This document shows positions 2,689-61,127 of a stretch of DNA of 64,000 bases, piece after piece. The notes beneath the pieces were generated by a model. The model was not told the DNA's origin and did no database searches. It was given only the letters and a program-made list of their open reading frames with translations. Position numbers and translations under genes: made by a program. Source of the stretch: Mycoplasma sp. (GTDB lineage: Bacteria; Bacillota_I; Bacilli_A; Mycoplasmatales; Metamycoplasmataceae); contig JAMPIX010000001.1 of assembly GCA_024721275.1 (NCBI GenBank), positions 62,001 through 126,000 on the forward strand, in the 5' to 3' direction. Each line of letters begins with the position of its first letter. The first letter of the stretch is position 1.

Positions 2689-3558
2689 CTATTTTTGAAT
2701 AAAGTTGAAAACCATTTTAAATACATCTTTATAAAGATCATCTTTTGTTTCTCATTGAAACGCATGCTTTCCTTTATCTAATTCAATATATTCAATACCT
2801 TCTCCTGTATTTTTTCTAATAAATTTCATTTTCTTGTCTGTTGCATATTCATCTTTAGTTGACTGAATATATAAGAGTTTTCTATCTGTTCCTTTATTAA
2901 TTTTTTTTATAATTCTTCATGATAGAAAAATATTTTTTCATGCAGCATAAAATAACTTAACTGGTGTTGCTTCAGGTTTTTTCATTTTATTCATTCTTGA
3001 AAGAGTTTTATTATTAGCTGTTCTATCTAAATCTATTTTAGTATATGCTTTTGTATTAATGTTAAATAGTAACATTACAAGTAATTTTCAAGCATATTCA
3101 AAATTACTTGTAACAGCAATCTTTCCTTCATTATTTTTCTTTGAAACTTCTTTGTTTTGTTTTGCTTCTTCTGATGTGAAAATATTTTGAGGAATAGATC
3201 ATAAAACAATTTTATGAACAAGATGACTATATTTGTTTGCAAAATGCATTCCAACTGCTGCACCTCATGAAGAACCAATAACAATAATTTTAGATTTTTG
3301 ATATTCTCTTTTAGTTCATAAAACTACATCTCTAAGATCTCTAACATATGTTGAATGCATTCTTGATGCTCTTTTTTTATCTTGCCCATTACATCTTGCA
3401 TCAAAATTTATAACTGTTGCTCTTTCATTTAGTCATTTTTCTAAATATCTTCATGAAGTATTATTAGATTGAATTCCATGTAAAGTAACAAAAACATACT
3501 CTTTTGAACCTTTTACAATTTTCAAATTAAATTGCTTATTATTATATCTAATTATCAT
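2689..3558 (-). CDS. Alpha/beta-hydrolase (serine-hydrolase/lysophospholipase-like)
   Basis: 289 aa. An early 'LHG' oxyanion-type segment, the nucleophile elbow 'GSSWG' (G-x-S-x-G) near residue 100, and a late acidic residue and His ('STKDEY', 'KGKHAF') complete a plausible Ser-Asp-His triad. There is no signal peptide, so it is cytosolic. Mollicutes carry several such S33/monoglyceride-lipase-like proteins with poorly known substrates, often thought to be lipid or peptide esters. TATAAT lies 8 nt before the ATG. A 21-bp gap separates it from the GT2 gene upstream. Confidence 0.8.
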
Positions 3559-3579: not shown

Positions 3580-4443
3580 TTATTCATTTATGACATTTAC
3601 ACTTTTTCTTATTAATGAATTAAAAATACCAATTTTGACAATTCAATATTGAATTTTTAAACTAATTGAATTTTTAGATTTATATTTGATTGATTTAACT
3701 CTTTTTAATAAATCTGGGAATCATAATTTAGCCATCATATATAGATGAGGATACATGTGACCAATTATATTGTTTTCTAAATTGCTTTTTCTAGTAATGG
3801 GGTTTTCAAATATTTCTATTGCATGTAGTAATCTTGATCTATATACACTGTTAGATTTACTTAATGATTCAGAATTGTATCTATAGAAATATCATAAGTT
3901 TTTAACATCTCTTAAATCATCAATTTTAAATTCACTATATTTATGAACGAAAAAATCCCAATCTTCTATTGCGAATTTATGCTTTGGAAATCTATAATTT
4001 TTAAATAAATTTTTATGTATTACTTTTGAAGCGATTCCATCATCCATTTTATTCTTTTGGATTTTATTATCTATTTTTTCAGCTTTTCCATCTTTGTGTT
4101 CATTAATTAAATAAAAATTTTTATTATCTTTTAAGTTTTTATCTAATTCTTTCAAAAAATCAGTTGAAACATAATCATCTGCATCAACAAAAATAAATCA
4201 ATCACCAGTAGCATTATCTATTTGATAATTTCTTGTTGGGGACAATCCTTCATTTTCTTTTGAAATGATTTTTATATTTTTATAAGTTTTCAATATTTTT
4301 AAAGTAGTATCTTTTGAACCGTCATTTATAACAACGATTTCATATTTACTTTTATCAAAATCTTGATTAACTAAAGAATCAATACATTCACCAATTCATT
4401 TTTCTGTATTATAAGCAGCTACTAAAAAAGAAAATTTAATCAT
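3580..4443 (-). CDS. Family 2 glycosyltransferase
   Basis: 287 aa. The GT-A fold start 'FLVAAYNTEKWIGECIDSLVNQ'-type strand-helix, the 'NDGSKD' nucleotide-binding segment, and 'FVDADD' (DXD-like metal-binding motif) near residues 89-94 are typical of GT2 enzymes that extend polysaccharides or glycolipids. No transmembrane segment; it probably works on the inner membrane face. The ATG overlaps the stop of the pseudo-phosphohexomutase/LPG-synthase fusion (TAATG), so the two are co-translated and likely partners. Acceptor and donor unknown. Confidence 0.88.
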
Positions 4444-7220
4444 TATGTATAAAGAAGAATTCCTAACACTATCATAATGGAGACTAATAATCCGCCATTT
4501 ATTGAAATAAATGTCATTTTAAATTTCTTATCGTTAATGACTTTCTTTTTCATCAATTCTAGATTTTTATTTATTTTTTTAATTTTTATATTATGTCTTT
4601 CATAACCATATATAGAAAGTAAAACTCAAGTAGAAATTATTACTGGAATCATATAATCGAACAGTCTATACATTGCTGTAAAATCATCTACAAGTGATTG
4701 AGTTTTTCCTGCGCTATTTTCATTAAATACAACAGAGAATATTTTTATTGTAAATCATTCAGTAGTACCTGCAGCTCCAGGCGTAGGAGAAAGTGAATTA
4801 GCTGCTTGAACTAATTTTGTACCAACCATAAATTTTCAATATGATCCAGAAGTTTCGTTTGGTATTCCTATTATTTTTGCTGAAAAATATCCACCCAAAA
4901 TGAATATAGGGATGAATTCATACATTGCAAGTTCAAGTACCAATCATTTCTTGGTCATTATAAAATTGATTCCATATCTAATATCTGCCATTTCATTTAA
5001 ATATTGTGCAGTATTTCAATCGTTATCTTTAATGAAAAATGTTCAATCAAGCAATGTTGTTGTAGTTACAACAATTCAATAATGAATTCTCTTAGAAAAT
5101 ATTAATAAGGCAATCATAACTGTTGCAAAAATATCAAATGATAAACCGATAATTGTTAATGTAAGAAGGGATTTTGCTGCTGGTGTATCAGCAAAAAATG
5201 CTGAGCTGAACATATTTAAACCTATCGGTAAAAACACAATTGCCATAATTCCAACTTTTATTTGATAGAATAAAACATTTAAAGAATATGATGCTGCCAT
5301 ATCTCTTCTTGTATATCCCTTTTTTCTCATATATCAATATGATCCTGCTGATCCACCAATTGAAAGAGGTGTTATATTAGAAATAACAATAGATATTATT
5401 GATGCTATATATGAATGCCTCAATTTAACTTGACTGCCTAATACCTTGGATGCTCTTATTGTGAAAAATGCTTCTAATAATCTTGTAGAAAACGGTGCTA
5501 AAAAAGCAAGAATTATTCACATTACTCTGCCATCATGAGAAGAATTTTTTAAAGATGATCAAAGATCTTGAATTAATGCTATTCCAGTTTTGTAATAAAC
5601 AACTTCAAAAACAAATACAAGAATTCCAGCAAGAACGGCTAAGTATATTAAATTTTTAATAACTGTTTTTTTAGTTATTTTTTTACTATCTAAATCTTCT
5701 GTAAATTCAAAAATATCATCTTTTACTTTTTTGATATCTCTTATTGTATTAGAAATGTTTTCATCATCTTTAAAATAATATGTTTGTCTTAATGTTTCAT
5801 TTAATTGAGATAAAACAAGAGTTTTTTGATCTTTAAATTTTATTATTATTTTTTTATAATTTAGACCAAAACTAATAGTTTCCTTATTTACAATTTTAAA
5901 ACCACCAAGTTCATCTTTTGTATTTATTCTCTTGAATAGATTATTTATTATTTCATAATTCAATTTTTCTCTAAATGATTTTTCTTTTCAACTTCCACTT
6001 TTATTCATTGCTCATTTTTTCATTGAGTATAAGCTTTTACTTTGACTTTTGAAATAGTTACACATATCAGAAATTATTAAACTATCTACAATAGAATCAT
6101 GATTTAAAGTTTTGTTATTTATAAAACCATCACCCTCATCGAAACCAAATAAAAAATCTTTTTTTCCATATTTTTTTATTATCGGAATAATATCTTCATT
6201 TGAATTATATGTAACAACTTTTATATTATTTTTTTTAGCTAAATCAAATAACAATCTATTAGATGATGTACTTAAAATAATATATCCAGTTATGTTTTTA
6301 ATTGAAAGATATTCTAAATAAATTCCTACTCACTCACTATCTTCTAAAAATGCATATCTCTTTTTATGCTTTACAATAACAGAACTTTTTGTTCCTGCAA
6401 AGTTTTGAACTATTCCAACATCGGCTTTTTTGGCTCTTGTTTCTCTGAAAATTCTTCTCAATATTTTTTTATCATATATTTTATTTTTTTCAATTTTGTT
6501 TTTTGTTGTTCTTTTAGAAATAAAATAATCTATACCGCTTCCACCAATTATTTTTTCAATTAGCTTTGTTTGATAATTTGAATTACTAGATATTAAAACA
6601 CTACAATCTTTTAAATTGTTCTTATCAATAATTGAACTTAATACTAATTCTGAAAAATCTTCTATTACATCATTTGAAAAAACTTTTAAATTTTCATTAT
6701 TTATTTTTCAATTATCACTATACTCAACATCTTCTTTTAAGTTGCTATCAAAGTTAAAATCAATAACACCAGTTCCAACATTTTCGATTATTAATTTTTT
6801 GCTATTAGAATTTAAATATATTGCGTATTTCATTTCATATTTGTGTGAAAAATAATATGCAAATCCTTTTGTTATTCCTTCGTTATGTTTGAATGAAATT
6901 ATTTTTCTATCATTTTGACTAAATATACTTTGCATTAGAAATGAGAAATGTTTAGCATTTTCACTACCATCATGTGTAATTAAAATTTCTTTATCAATTG
7001 GAATTTTATTTAGTAATTCCATGGTCATATTAGTTAATGTATATTTATTAAAATATCCAGATCCAAGCTCTACTATACTTGTTACTTGGTTTTTTGAAAA
7101 TGAAAATGAATCATTAAATAAATCATCAATTTTGTCATTATTATATTTCTTTATATTTTTATAGTCATCGCTGATTAATTTTTTACTATTACTTCATTGA
7201 CTATAATTGTTATTAATCAT
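4443..7220 (-). CDS. Fusion: degenerate phosphohexomutase + LPG-synthase/UPF0104 membrane domain
   Basis: 925 aa, one uninterrupted frame with UGA=Trp. Residues 1 to about 410 follow the alpha-D-phosphohexomutase layout in order: a phosphoserine-loop region, an 'ADVGIVQNFAGTK' strand where active enzymes have ADxxxANDPDADR, and 'FGFDEGDGF' near 356-364 where the sugar-binding GFEESYGF loop sits, followed by the 'SLLIADMxxYxKSQxKSLY' helix. The serine loop (TASHNP) is replaced by 'ISFKHNEGITKG' and the metal-binding DxDxD is absent, so catalysis is very unlikely. Residues about 515-925 are a multispan LPG_synthase_TM domain with 'ITPLSIGGSAG' and 'SPTPGAAGTTEW'. I see it as a sugar-phosphate sensor or adaptor tethered to a lipid transporter or flippase; that role is inference. 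Confidence 0.85.
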
Positions 7221-7246: not shown

Positions 7247-9076
7247 TTATTTTGAAAAGATTTGATAAGAATCAAACATTGCAATTTCCTTATATCCATA
7301 AGATGCGAAATCAATATCAGGAGTAATATTATCAACATGTATTATTCAAATTTGAGCGTTGCCAAGTGTTTCATTAAAGTCGCCATTATATTTATAAGCT
7401 CAATTATATATATCGCCACCTATACTTTTGTTTGGTTCATTTCTATTAAGTCAATCAACAATATTATCAACATTTTTAAAAGAACCATTTATGAAGTCTT
7501 TCTTTGAATACAATGAATAGTCTATAGTTGCCATAGTTAATGAAATACTAGCTATTGGTAATAATGTAAATACAACTTTTCTTCAGTTTTTTATTTTTAC
7601 TCCAAAAATTAAACTTGTCAAAATTATTACAAATGGGAAAATGAAAACAGATTTTAAATAATTTGTATTTGTATCTAATATAGGAAAAATTAATTTTCAT
7701 GTATTTATTGATATTGGAGAATAGAAAAAGACAACAAAGGAAAGAATGAAAAGTGAAAATAATTTAATTGTGGTACTTTTTGATTTAGTAACTCAAAAAA
7801 TTGATAAACCTATTATTATTAAATAACTAGAATAATACAATCACGATGTTAAATTATTTGCTTCATTACCAAAACTAAATATTATATTATGTGGATCAAA
7901 ACCAAACCAAAAATCAGTTTTATTTGTTGAAATTAAAATAACATTTACCAATATAAATACAAACAACATGATGGCTAAGAAAAAATACTTCTTCTTAATT
8001 AACCAAAGTGATGATTGTTCTAAAAATGGATTCGTTTTATCTATTCTATAAATAATTCATAATAATCCAGATAAGACAATTGCACCTATTAATATTATTC
8101 CTAATAATTGATCTCAATACACTATACCTATCATCATTAATTCAGGAATGGCTTCTATACATAATAACGCCAATGAATTACTTTGTTTTAAAGCAAGTCT
8201 TGAAATGAATAATGAAAAGATCATAAACGGATAAATAATTATCATTGAATAATTCATTGTTCATGCACAAAATGCTGCAACAATTAATACTTTTGATAAA
8301 TGTTCATTTCTTCAATTTATAAACAACGCAGTAAAAATAAATAAAATTATAAAAATGTATGAATAATCATTATTTAATGCAGCAGCAGAAACACCATAAA
8401 CATAGTTAGTTAAAAGAAGTAATGATAATGCAATAATTGGAGCAATAAAAATATTTCTAATATATTTGTAAAGAAATGTCATGACTATTGATAATCCAAT
8501 CATTGTTATAAAGAATTTAGAAATTCAATAAGTAAAAAATTCAGGATTAATTTTAATGTATCAAATTATTGCATTTCAATGAACTCAAGTTAGAAATTCT
8601 TGTGAGTTTGATAATTTTCCCTCAAAGCCATGACTATCATAAGAATTAATTATATTTTTATCAACAGCATATTTATTTTGGAATAAATTATTTAAACTGG
8701 TTCCACCATCTAATTTAGATACAACAATATTTATTAGAATTGTTGTAAATATTCCGAATATAAAAAATCATGTAATTTTTTTATAATTTGTATTTCTAAA
8801 ATTAATTTCACTTTGATTTCTTAATATAAATATGATGATGGATAAATTTTTAACTATTTCAACAATACCTAAAAATTCTAGTTTTGTTTTAAAAACAACA
8901 AATGGTAATAGAAATAGAAATGTAATAAAAAAATATGTTATTATCCCGATAGAAAAATATGAACTTGTTACTCCGTTAAATAATTTGTATCTATTAACAA
9001 AGATTTGTCCAAGGAACAACGATAATATAGAAACTACAAGTAAAATCAATATACTCATTAATATTGAATAAATCAT
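7247..9076 (-). CDS. Large multispan membrane protein with C-terminal soluble domain, possible GT-C-like
   Basis: 609 aa, about 13 predicted helices. A long first extracytoplasmic loop after TM4 carries acidic residues ('SKLDGGTS') and 'LTWVHWNAI'. The C-terminal ~70 residues are soluble ('IVDWLNRNEPNKSIGGDIYNWAYKYNGDF'-type segment). The gene at 26040-27899 is a clear paralogue, sharing 'TWVHW', 'FFSPIS' and 'DWLNxNxPNKxIxGDIxNWAYKYNG'. The layout (many helices, acidic early loop, C-terminal globular part) resembles GT-C lipid-sugar-dependent transferases, but I cannot place the family. The ATG is 7 nt after a TATAAT. Confidence 0.65.
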
Positions 9077-9112: not shown

Positions 9113-9829
9113 TTAATATTTTTTATATTTTATATTTGCGTCATTAATAATTGTAGCTGGATATTTTGATGGACCATAAAATCAATGATATTTTTTATCA
9201 GGTTTTTTTCAATCTCCATAAGCTCATTCAAGATATTTTTCGATATCCTTTGGAACATTTGATTTAATATCGGCAATTTTAATTCTTTCTATATCATAAT
9301 CAATATTTGTTGGTCTTCTTGAATATCTATTATTTTTTTCATCAAATGACATTCCTTTTTCATGACCTTTATCAACTACAAAAATATCTAATGATAATTT
9401 TCTTTTTTTATGTAAATAAGTTCTTTCATATACTTTAGATCCAATAGATCATTCTTCTGAAAGTTTAAAACCAATTTCTGTAAATGCTTTAAGATTTTTG
9501 TCATTGAAATCTTCTCTAAACATTCCTAAATCTATATCATCATCACCGAAGTTATTATTTCTATATGCAAACAATAATGTTCCTCATACTAAATGATATT
9601 TTACTTTTCTCTTTTCAATTTCTTCAATCATTCATGGAGTATTTTTTCTATATTTGGCTCTAGTTTTTTTGTTTATTATAATAAAAATCGGACTAAATAT
9701 CATTAGTGTAAGAGAGTGGAAAATAGTAAGTGCTAAATGACGTCTTTTACCGATTGATTTCATTTGATAAATTAATAAAATGATTGCAAATACTAAATAT
9801 ATTGGAAAAACTATATAAAAAATTAACAT
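9113..9829 (-). CDS. licD: LicD-family phosphocholine transferase
   Basis: 238 aa. Two N-terminal membrane helices precede the LicD nucleotidyltransferase-fold core. The signature 'GTLLFAYRNNNFGDDDIDLGM' region holds the catalytic DDDID acidic cluster near residues 95-99, and 'LDIFVVDKG' follows. LicD proteins transfer phosphocholine from CDP-choline to sugar acceptors on surface glycans or glycolipids. The downstream half of the pathway is encoded just upstream: permease 9832-10764 and cytidylyltransferase-kinase 10754-12433. Strong call for the family; the acceptor is presumably a membrane glycolipid because mollicutes have no wall. Confidence 0.88.
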
Positions 9830-9831
9830 AT

Positions 9832-10764
9832 TTAAATTATACCTTTTACAAACTTCTTATTCTTACTTTTATTTTTGACAGGTATATTAATTACAGCTAA
9901 TCCAAGAGAGATAAGAATTGTTCCTGTAACATTATAAACATTGAAAGCAGAATCATTTAGTGATCATGAAATAATCATAGCAACTAAAACATATGAGGAA
10001 TTTATTGCAACTATAATCGATGGAGTTTTTGTTCTTCACAAAGCAATATAATAAAAAATGTATGATGCAAGTGCATTTGCTGAAGCTAATAAAATAAATA
10101 GAACCTCAATTTTTAAACTTATTGACAATATATTCTTTCAAGAAATAAAATCAGGTATAAATATCAATACAACTAAAATCATTGATAAAGCTAAAACAGA
10201 GCCAGAATATTTTAAGGTTAACATTGTCCCTACGTTAGTTTCACTTTTTACAAACTTTACACAGACTATTTCAATCCCATATGAAATTGCACCTAATATT
10301 GCAAAGATTATTCCATAATATTGTCCATTTGTAGTAACATCAATCCCGACAGTTATCGATCCAGATAGAATTAATATAATTCCTACAAATGATAAGAAAG
10401 ATAATCTTTCTTTAAATAAAAGTCTGGATGTAAATAATACAAATAATGGATACATTGAAATAAATAAATCTGATAAACCAAAACCAATTATATTCATAGA
10501 AGTAACATAAAATGATAGAGAAATTCCACCACCAAAAATTCCACCAATTGATAAAAGCACTTTATCTCTCTTGCTAATTTGTTTAAAATTTATTTTTTTA
10601 TTAAAAAGAATTAATGTGAAAATTAAACACAATATTTCTTTTAAAAATGAAAATAAAAAAGTTGAATTTTTATTTGTTTTTATTGCATTTGAAGATTCAC
10701 TTGTTAATACTGGATCAAAGCCTCAAAAAACAGCCGACACTAAAGCAATTAATTTATTTTTCAT
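9832..10764 (-). CDS. licB: EamA/DMT-family permease, LicB-like choline importer
   Basis: 310 aa, ten predicted helices arranged as two EamA repeats, with typical 'WGFDPVLT' start and 'LLFKERLSFLSFVGIILILSGS' end of the first repeat. The DMT fold alone does not give substrate, but position between licD (3-bp gap) and the choline kinase/cytidylyltransferase gene (11-bp overlap) matches LicB, the choline uptake protein of lic loci. Function from context is good, direct evidence moderate. Confidence 0.8.
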
Positions 10765-12433
10765 TATTAGTCAACCTCTCTAAAGTTTTTGAATAATAAT
10801 TAATTATTTTTTGTTCTCATTTTTCTCTTTTATATTGATAACATCATGCAGATCAAAGAAACATTAATAAAAATTTTATGTCTTTTAAAACATCGTTATT
10901 AAATTTATATTTTTCTATAAGTTTCATTTCATTTTTTTTATTAATATTATTTTCAATAATAAATGATGCTAGATCTCAATGTCTATTATTCATTGATGAT
11001 AATTCTCAATCAATTAAAAAATAATTATTATTTGCTTTAATTATATTTCCCTCTATTGAATCGTTATGACATAAAACAAAATTTTTTTCTGTTTCGTGTG
11101 AATAATATTTATTTGCTAATAATAAGAATTTATTTTTATATTTTTCTATTTCGAATATATTTTTATTTTTAGTATATTTATTAAATAAAGCAATCGGATT
11201 AAATATATTATCTACTTTAATTTTTGAATTATGAATCTTGTTGTGCAATGAAAAAATATCAATTGATTTATTATTGAAATCAATATTATTATCAATGTTT
11301 TCTATAAACTCAGTAATCAATATTCCTGTTTTACTATCAGCATAAAATACATTTGAAGAAATTTTAAGATCTTTTATATTATTTAAAATTTTCATTTCAT
11401 TAATTCTATCAATGTTTTTATTAGTTTCTTGTTTAGGAAATCTTATTACAAATTTTTTGTTTTTAATCATATAACTATATGCATCATTTGTAAGTCCTCC
11501 TTTAATTATATTAAAATCAGTTATTTCATATATTTCAACTGAATGTGCAAACATTATTGCTTCCATTGGATTACCTAATTTTTTAATCGGTCATTCACTA
11601 GCAATGTTTCTATAATCTTCTAATGTGTCTATTTCATATTTATCATCTTTTTTTAAATATTCAATTCTCATTGTAATATTGTTTTTGAATATTAATGATT
11701 CAGCATAATCGTTCGGATTATATTCTTCTTTATTCTTCTTTATTTTTAAAATATCTTCATTTGAAATGAAATATCCATTTCCTCATAGTGGACCATTTCC
11801 ATTTAATTCATATCCGTTTGCAATTCTTCCATTGACTTTTAATGTTCATTCATTTTTTCGTTTTTCCTTTGAAGCGTAAATTCAAGTTTCTGCTCCATAG
11901 AAAAAAATTCTTTTTTTCTTTCAAAGAACATCGCCCTCAAAGAACATTGTATTTCCATTTACTTTTTCTAAACTTTTTATAAAAGATGAAATATTATTTT
12001 CTGTATTGTATTTTTCGTTATATACAAGAGATACATTTTTATATTTTCTATTTAAAAAATCAAACTTTTTATTTAAATAACCAGTAATAACAAAAACATT
12101 GATATCGGAAGGAATTTTTGAAATCAAACTTTCAATTAAAGTTTGATTTTCTATTTTTATTAATGGCTTTGGAATAGAGTTGGTGATTGGCTTCAATCTA
12201 GATCCAAATCCAGCTGCATATATAACAATGTTTTTAGCTTTATATTTTTTAAGTTCACTTATTCCTGTTTTTGTTAAATATATTTTAGTTTTTTTAATGT
12301 TTATGAAATTTAAATCAATCAAAGTTGTTTTAATTTTTTGAATTTTCCCTATCGATCATTCCAATTCTTCTTTAAGTTCACTTACTTTTAATTTATTACA
12401 AATAGATAAAAATTTTAAAATATCATTTTTCAT
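10754..12433 (-). CDS. Fused wHTH - CTP:phosphocholine cytidylyltransferase - choline kinase (LicC-LicA)
   Basis: 559 aa with three parts. Residues 1-70 look like a winged helix. Residues about 73-300 are a nucleotidyltransferase with 'AAGFGSRLKPITNSIPKPL' (GxGxRL...PKPL) as in LicC. Residues about 310-559 are a choline/ethanolamine-type kinase with 'CHNDSIEGNI' (Brenner motif HxDxxxxN, near 449-458) and 'LIDWELSS' (metal-binding Asp). It would convert choline and ATP to phosphocholine and then CDP-choline in one polypeptide. The wHTH suggests autoregulation or a scaffold. A TATTAT box lies 6 nt before the ATG. Heads the licCA-licB-licD operon. Confidence 0.88.
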
Positions 12434-61051: not shown

Positions 61052-61127
61052 AGGGGTATAGTTCAATTGGTAGAACATCAGTCTTCAAAATTGAGTGTTA
61101 TGGGTTCAAGTCCTGTTACCCCTGCCA
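61052..61127 (+). tRNA. tRNA-Trp (TCA), reads UGA
   Basis: Acceptor AGGGGTA/TACCCCT, D-arm and T-arm (GGGTTCAAGTCC) standard, anticodon loop CTTCAAA with anticodon TCA at 61085-61087. It decodes UGA as Trp, explaining every in-frame UGA in this window. TATAAT at 61033-61038. Confidence 0.96.

Follow-up and report, generated by a model that had tools for sequence, protein, structure and literature searches.

What does a sugar-phosphate mutase that has lost its active site do when it is joined, in a single chain, to a membrane domain of the flippase type? The question is raised by a gene in a stretch of 64,000 nucleotides of Mycoplasma sp. DNA (hereafter the window), in which an earlier note had read one 925-aa frame uniting a dead phosphohexomutase with an intact UPF0104/LPG_synthase_TM half. 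That frame is confirmed under genetic code 4, with 15 TGA codons read as tryptophan, and breaks into pieces under table 11 (Table 1). The same architecture occurs in 33 other fusions from more than 10 genera, which rules out a chance open frame or an assembly error, and the 34 distinct fusions likewise rule out a unique event. The author of the note did not know of such a fusion, and the literature searched likewise yielded no paper describing one; the fusion is real and conserved and, as far as that literature shows, undescribed. Elsewhere in the window, a tRNA called as SeC (anticodon tca, 61052-61127) most likely represents the tryptophan tRNA that reads UGA, as expected with code 4, and a 267-aa protein encoded on the plus strand (283-1086) matches TMEM164 (PF14808, 4.6e-28), a family named after a eukaryotic membrane protein.

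Table 1. Features of the fusion gene and of the gene run that contains it (positions in the window; aa, residues of the fusion protein)
Feature	Position	Strand	Basis
Alpha/beta hydrolase, downstream in the gene run	2689..3558	-	PF00561 3.8e-15
GT2 glycosyltransferase	3580..4443	-	PF00535 1e-29
Fusion gene, pseudo-phosphohexomutase and PF03706 flippase domain	4443..7220	-	925 aa, code 4
LPG_synthase_TM domain (PF03706), aa 525-862, motifs ITPLSIGG and SPTPGAAGT	4635..5648	-	Pfam 1.2e-12
N half, aa 1-505, degenerate phosphohexomutase, predicted cytosolic	5706..7220	-	hhalign and foldseek
SQLNETL (aa 471-477) replacing the phosphate-binding loop RxSGTEP, lost	5790..5810	-	Alignment with 43 intact mutases
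FGFDEGDGF (aa 358-366), relic of the sugar loop GFEE(A/S)xG	6123..6149	-	Same 43-mutase alignment
NFAGTK (aa 273-278) replacing the metal loop DPDADR, lost	6387..6404	-	Same 43-mutase alignment
NSNSK (aa 137-141) replacing the phosphoserine loop TASHN, lost	6798..6812	-	Same 43-mutase alignment
609-aa hydrophobic protein, directly upstream of the fusion	7247..9076	-	Same gene run
LicD-type head-group transferase, similar to the M. fermentans Mf1 profile	9113..9829	-	PF04991 2.8e-5, over cutoff
EamA-type permease, LicB-like position	9832..10764	-	PF00892 8.7e-22
Nucleotidyltransferase joined to a choline-kinase-type domain (LicC-LicA-like)	10754..12433	-	PF00483 1.4e-7, PF01633 6.1e-12

The N half, placed in the cytosol on account of its mutase ancestry, has no Pfam match when taken by itself. 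The NCBIfam profile NF045968 ("MAG5620 family putative phospho-sugar mutase") matches aa 57-520 (5e-5), and its 22.3 bits against a curated cutoff of 115 bits leave the N half outside that family. Its phosphohexomutase-like character was borne out by profile comparison: an alignment of dead N halves only, set against intact mutases with hhalign, gave a probability of 99.9% (E 1.1e-32, 474 columns), and its fold and homology over domains I-IV place it in the alpha-D-phosphohexomutase superfamily. A template-free AlphaFold model is of low confidence (pLDDT 50), yet its 48 best PDB matches by foldseek are phosphohexomutases; a second model (pLDDT 55) gave superpositions with an rmsd near 27 Å. 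Since both models were built on shallow alignments of 4 sequences, only the fold label is used. PDB sequence searches with the window sequence alone or with dead N halves alone returned no match, and a search with a mixed alignment does match mutases.

The active site was read by aligning 31 dead and 3 intact fusions with 43 intact free mutases and 3 proteins of the MAG5620 type. The phosphoserine loop and the DxDxD metal site, described as missing in the earlier note, are indeed replaced, as is RxSGTEP, and the GFK loop and both early Arg residues are also gone from the window N half. Of the loops that mark an active alpha-D-phosphohexomutase (TASHN, DxDxDR, GEEx and RxSGTEP), the window protein lacks three and has a degenerate sugar loop; all four are present in the fusions of three relatives, G006, G008 and G043. 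The claim that a GFEES-like sugar loop remains holds for the window sequence, where a degenerate loop keeps E362 and G365 with the first Glu changed to Asp, but not for the other dead fusions: the second Glu is kept in 8 of 31 (26%) and the Gly in 1 of 31 (3%), which makes the window loop a relic rather than a conserved function. The best-kept positions of the dead family are non-catalytic (N59 77%, F99 58%, D402 58% and D91 52%, in the numbering of the window organism's own free mutase).

The C half belongs to PF03706, at 48.4 bits against the Pfam gathering cutoff of 33.4, and a dead phosphohexomutase joined to an intact flippase-type half is accordingly what profile searches of both halves support. 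Residues T617, P618, G622, P814, G815 and G818 are invariant among 18 fusions, and the TIGR00374 flippase-like domain scores 22.1 bits, below its curated cutoff of 43.2 bits. A sequence search with the unfused flippase of the relative G037 found no solved relative of this half. Members of PF03706 have been proposed to be flippases generally (PMC5898192), and lipid scrambling by MprF of P. aeruginosa has been measured and is promiscuous (PMC11980842).

The fusion varies the MprF-like layout, a flippase joined to a soluble domain, by having a pseudo-phosphohexomutase as its soluble part. MprF, a lysyl/alanyl-phosphatidylglycerol synthase and flippase, likewise combines a PF03706 membrane domain with a cytosolic domain in one chain, but its soluble part is a C-terminal DUF2156 aminoacyl transferase, whereas that of the fusion is an N-terminal degenerate phosphohexomutase; no Pfam match to DUF2156, the aminoacyl-tRNA-dependent lipid synthase domain by which MprF is recognized, was found in the 925 aa. 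The AglD/UPF0104 flippases and GpgF are also PF03706/COG0392 membrane proteins of glycosylation or glycolipid pathways; their partner, however, is a glycosyltransferase domain or a separate gene, and the available portions of the sources mention no mutase fusion (PMC5898192, PMC12713373). On the mutase side, the MAG5620 family, whose NF045968 profile spans the N half, consists of degenerate mutases of the same bacteria, and the three such proteins read lack TASHN and DPDxDR, as the dead fusions do; they differ in being free-standing, ~450-540 aa long and devoid of a flippase half, and the fusions score below the NF045968 cutoff. Precedents for non-catalytic or regulatory phosphohexomutases are PGM5 (aciculin), an inactive protein of this fold with a structural role (PMC7761743), and GlmM, which regulates the membrane protein DacA/CdaA by contact (PMC6368335). 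Unlike the window N half, which has lost those residues, PGM5 keeps its substrate site and binds glucose-1-phosphate, and it is not fused to a membrane domain; GlmM and DacA/CdaA are separate proteins, the mutase being active and its target a membrane-anchored cyclase.

A search in other mollicutes, as the earlier note had advised, uncovered a widespread family. The 34 distinct fusions in the loci read come from 58 relatives, then from 198 genomes of the order, and from one further contig scan, which gave Mycoplasma sp. ATU-Cv-703 and two uncultured Mycoplasma MAGs. All lie in the GTDB family of the window except that of G043, which belongs to a different family of the order; the two MAGs lack a family code but fall within the window's family in a tree of flippase halves. 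No fusion outside the order, or outside the window's family, was found among 395 class-wide genomes (E < 1e-98), nor was any found in viral contigs. The four active-site motifs are all-or-none: three of the 34 fusions (G006, G008 and G043) keep all of them and the other 31 keep none. Besides these catalytically intact members, of which the earlier note had no word, G037 has an unfused pair, a mutase (549 aa) and a flippase (436 aa, PF03706 1.8e-19) whose genes share a direction and lie ~10 nt from each other; this is probably the ancestral arrangement, from which the fusion would arise. The N half is truncated in G001, G023 and G031, and in G005 the gene (L061:7910-10746) is split by in-frame stops into 758 and 144 aa, which is a fusion being lost.

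Related proteins without a flippase half were also met. Free-standing dead phosphohexomutases of the MAG5620 type (L071:6921-8552, L072:8120-9751 and L073:6700-8376) are found in G011, G021 and G029, genomes that also have a dead fusion and an intact mutase, and some genomes of the family, such as G002 and G032, have only a MAG5620-type protein. The free intact mutases of G020 and G028 (L063:8799-10790 and L064:8199-10181) have an additional C-terminal stretch of ~100 aa, charged and lacking a membrane segment, and cluster with the fused, intact halves of G006 and G008; they are possibly fusions that have lost their flippase half.

If the flippase half alone mattered, the dead N half would be an idle leftover in the course of decay. 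In the three closest pairs of fusions (L007/L008, L016/L017 and L092/L093), in which dS is moderate, dN/dS is 0.07-0.13 for the dead half and 0.03-0.08 for the flippase half; in pairs further apart the values are higher, but dS is saturating. Neutral drift would give values near 1, and the dead halves are, on these codon comparisons, under purifying selection. They have, moreover, been kept open over 470-590 aa in 31 fusions from more than 10 genera with reduced genomes. What speaks for decay is that, among the closest pairs, the dead half outpaces the flippase half ~1.4-3.7-fold in its rate of evolution, which, together with the truncations and the broken G005 gene, suggests that the N half may be only loosely needed. 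We regard an idle leftover as unlikely; some purpose other than catalysis seems to be what preserves the dead half.

The purpose put forward in the earlier note was that of a sugar-phosphate sensor, the dead mutase still binding a hexose phosphate and thereby gating the flippase or the coupled GT2. The relic loop FGFDEGDGF would fit such a role, as would the example of PGM5, which binds glucose-1-phosphate although inactive (PMC7761743); unlike PGM5, however, the window N half has lost RxSGTEP, the metal loop, the GFK loop and both early Arg residues, that is, nearly all contacts with substrate and phosphate, and other dead fusions do not keep the sugar loop. The distribution of free mutases and of GalU bears on the same point. 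The genomes with an intact fusion have no other mutase and possess GalU, whereas 14 of the 19 dead-fusion genomes of the 58-genome set have a free mutase (Fisher p 0.036 for the contrast, shared ancestry being ignored). All free mutases read keep intact phosphoserine and metal loops, and that of the window organism (G000:C2:268815-270440) is directly followed by galU. In the 35 genomes of the family that were counted, full-length GalU accompanies an intact mutase, whether free or fused, in 16 of the 19 that have one and is present in 0 of the 16 that do not (ancestry again ignored; three of the genomes lacking both are <90% complete). Because no other mutase is present and GalU tracks an intact one, the fused mutase of G006, G008 and G043 is, judging from gene content, probably a working glucose-6-P/glucose-1-P enzyme. 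G001, G016, G033 and G034 lack both a mutase and GalU and still carry dead fusions, and this is evidence against a role tied to glucose-1-phosphate. The sensor has thereby become improbable.

How often catalysis was lost depends on how the intact and dead members are related. In the flippase-half tree, intact G006 and G008 group with dead G001, G023 and G031 (99/98 support). A single clade of all dead fusions is rejected by an AU test on this half (p 0.005; p 0.003 without the window sequence), the groups having been taken from the motif table before the AU test but after a first tree. Given this rejection, and since four motifs are unlikely to be regained by mutation, the flippase-half tree means that catalysis was lost at least twice, the alternative being that recombination restored an intact half to G006 and G008. 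In the N-half tree, intact halves fall with free mutases; because that tree does not unite dead and intact halves in one group, re-fusion with a fresh mutase in G006/G008 is possible. More generally, the intact fusions (G006/G008 and G043) could have arisen independently of the dead ones or regained a mutase afterwards, as this grouping and the separation of the G043 N half from those of G006/G008 would suggest. Such a history is quite improbable, for all flippase halves including that of G043 form one group (100/100, against only two usable unfused outgroups), the halves align collinearly from end to end, and in the N-half tree the dead rows are long branches of odd composition. The free mutase of the window organism differs from the others of its own family in clustering with those of another family (98), and may therefore have a separate origin.

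The fusion belongs to a tight run of at least nine minus-strand genes, in which it stands fifth; in order, these encode the LicC-LicA-like protein, the EamA permease, LicD, the 609-aa hydrophobic protein, the fusion, the GT2, the alpha/beta hydrolase and two HAD hydrolases. The GT2 start overlaps the fusion stop as TAATG, in support of the coupling proposed in the earlier note. The 609-aa protein has no Pfam or NCBIfam match, and the LicD-type protein matches NF045866 below its cutoff (6.7e-9). The first ~65 aa of the LicC-LicA-like protein weakly resemble a winged-helix DNA-binding domain (PF13601, 0.1); the protein might thereby regulate itself. In its predicted functions the operon resembles a lic-type phosphocholine pathway; Mf1 of M. 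fermentans is a characterised LicD-type phosphocholine transferase acting on glucosyl diacylglycerol (PMC11982090). The fusion of G024 lies between two LicD genes and beside a 601-aa nucleotidyltransferase-aminotransferase protein (L048:6057-7862), which adjoins both LicD and the fusion. The domain order of this protein presumably recalls that of phosphonate (aminoethylphosphonate) activation enzymes. The intact fusion of G006 is found near a nucleotidyltransferase and an aminotransferase, with a GT2 like that of the window on the opposite strand. Housekeeping genes surround the fusion in most of the other genomes (e.g., scpA/scpB, dnaA, alaS, DNA ligase); a constant neighbourhood across the family was looked for and not found, and LicD shows no strict link to the fusion. 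The cargo is therefore uncertain, and the glycolipid proposed in the earlier note is plausible in the window, with its lic-type operon, but does not extend to the family as a whole. That the N half has acquired another catalysis, such as head-group or glycosyl transfer, in the manner of MprF, which joins a synthase to a PF03706 flippase (PMC5898192), is very unlikely even in an operon that handles head-group transfer, as LicD and GT2 already supply transferases there and no conserved polar set replaces the lost site (only N58, I134, F157, K286 and Y304 reach 90% in 13 aligned dead N halves).

The fold and its fusion to a flippase domain, the loss of the active site, the existence of intact and dead members, the unfused pair and the purifying selection, all read from sequence, are what an explanation has to accommodate. 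We give about even odds (roughly 0.5) to an MprF-like (PF03706) protein that flips or scrambles lipids and whose cytosolic half, once a mutase, has become a pseudoenzyme that serves for structure or docking. Given the link of PF03706 to lipid translocation, the most economical reading is that the C half would move lipid and that the N half, formerly an enzyme, would serve as a structural element or a dock. A mutase gene would first have adjoined a flippase gene, as in G037, and then have been fused to it, which may have placed glucose-1-phosphate production at the membrane. Catalysis would have been lost at least twice, in genomes that have a free mutase or no longer synthesize UDP-glucose, and the dead domain would have been retained because the flippase needs it for folding, for oligomerisation or for the docking of partner enzymes. 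In the window only, the coupled GT2 and the LicD operon would supply these partners, and a zwitterionic, phosphocholine-type glycolipid moved to the outer leaflet would be the cargo; we infer substrate, partner and role of the dead half alike. The fuller history, in which a working mutase was tethered to a flippase, lost catalysis several times independently and became a required regulatory or docking part, is advanced more tentatively.

Pseudoenzymes are usually read backwards from their end state. If the reading of repeated loss is true, the conversion of an enzyme into a pseudoenzyme has been repeated in this family with the unfused, intact-fused and dead-fused stages all still living, and the presence of an unfused pair and of intact and dead fusions in related, genome-reduced bacteria makes the retention of a domain after catalytic loss directly testable. 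The fusion would also give mycoplasmas a candidate lipid scramblase, of relevance to how wall-less cells build an outer leaflet with phosphocholine or glycolipid antigens.
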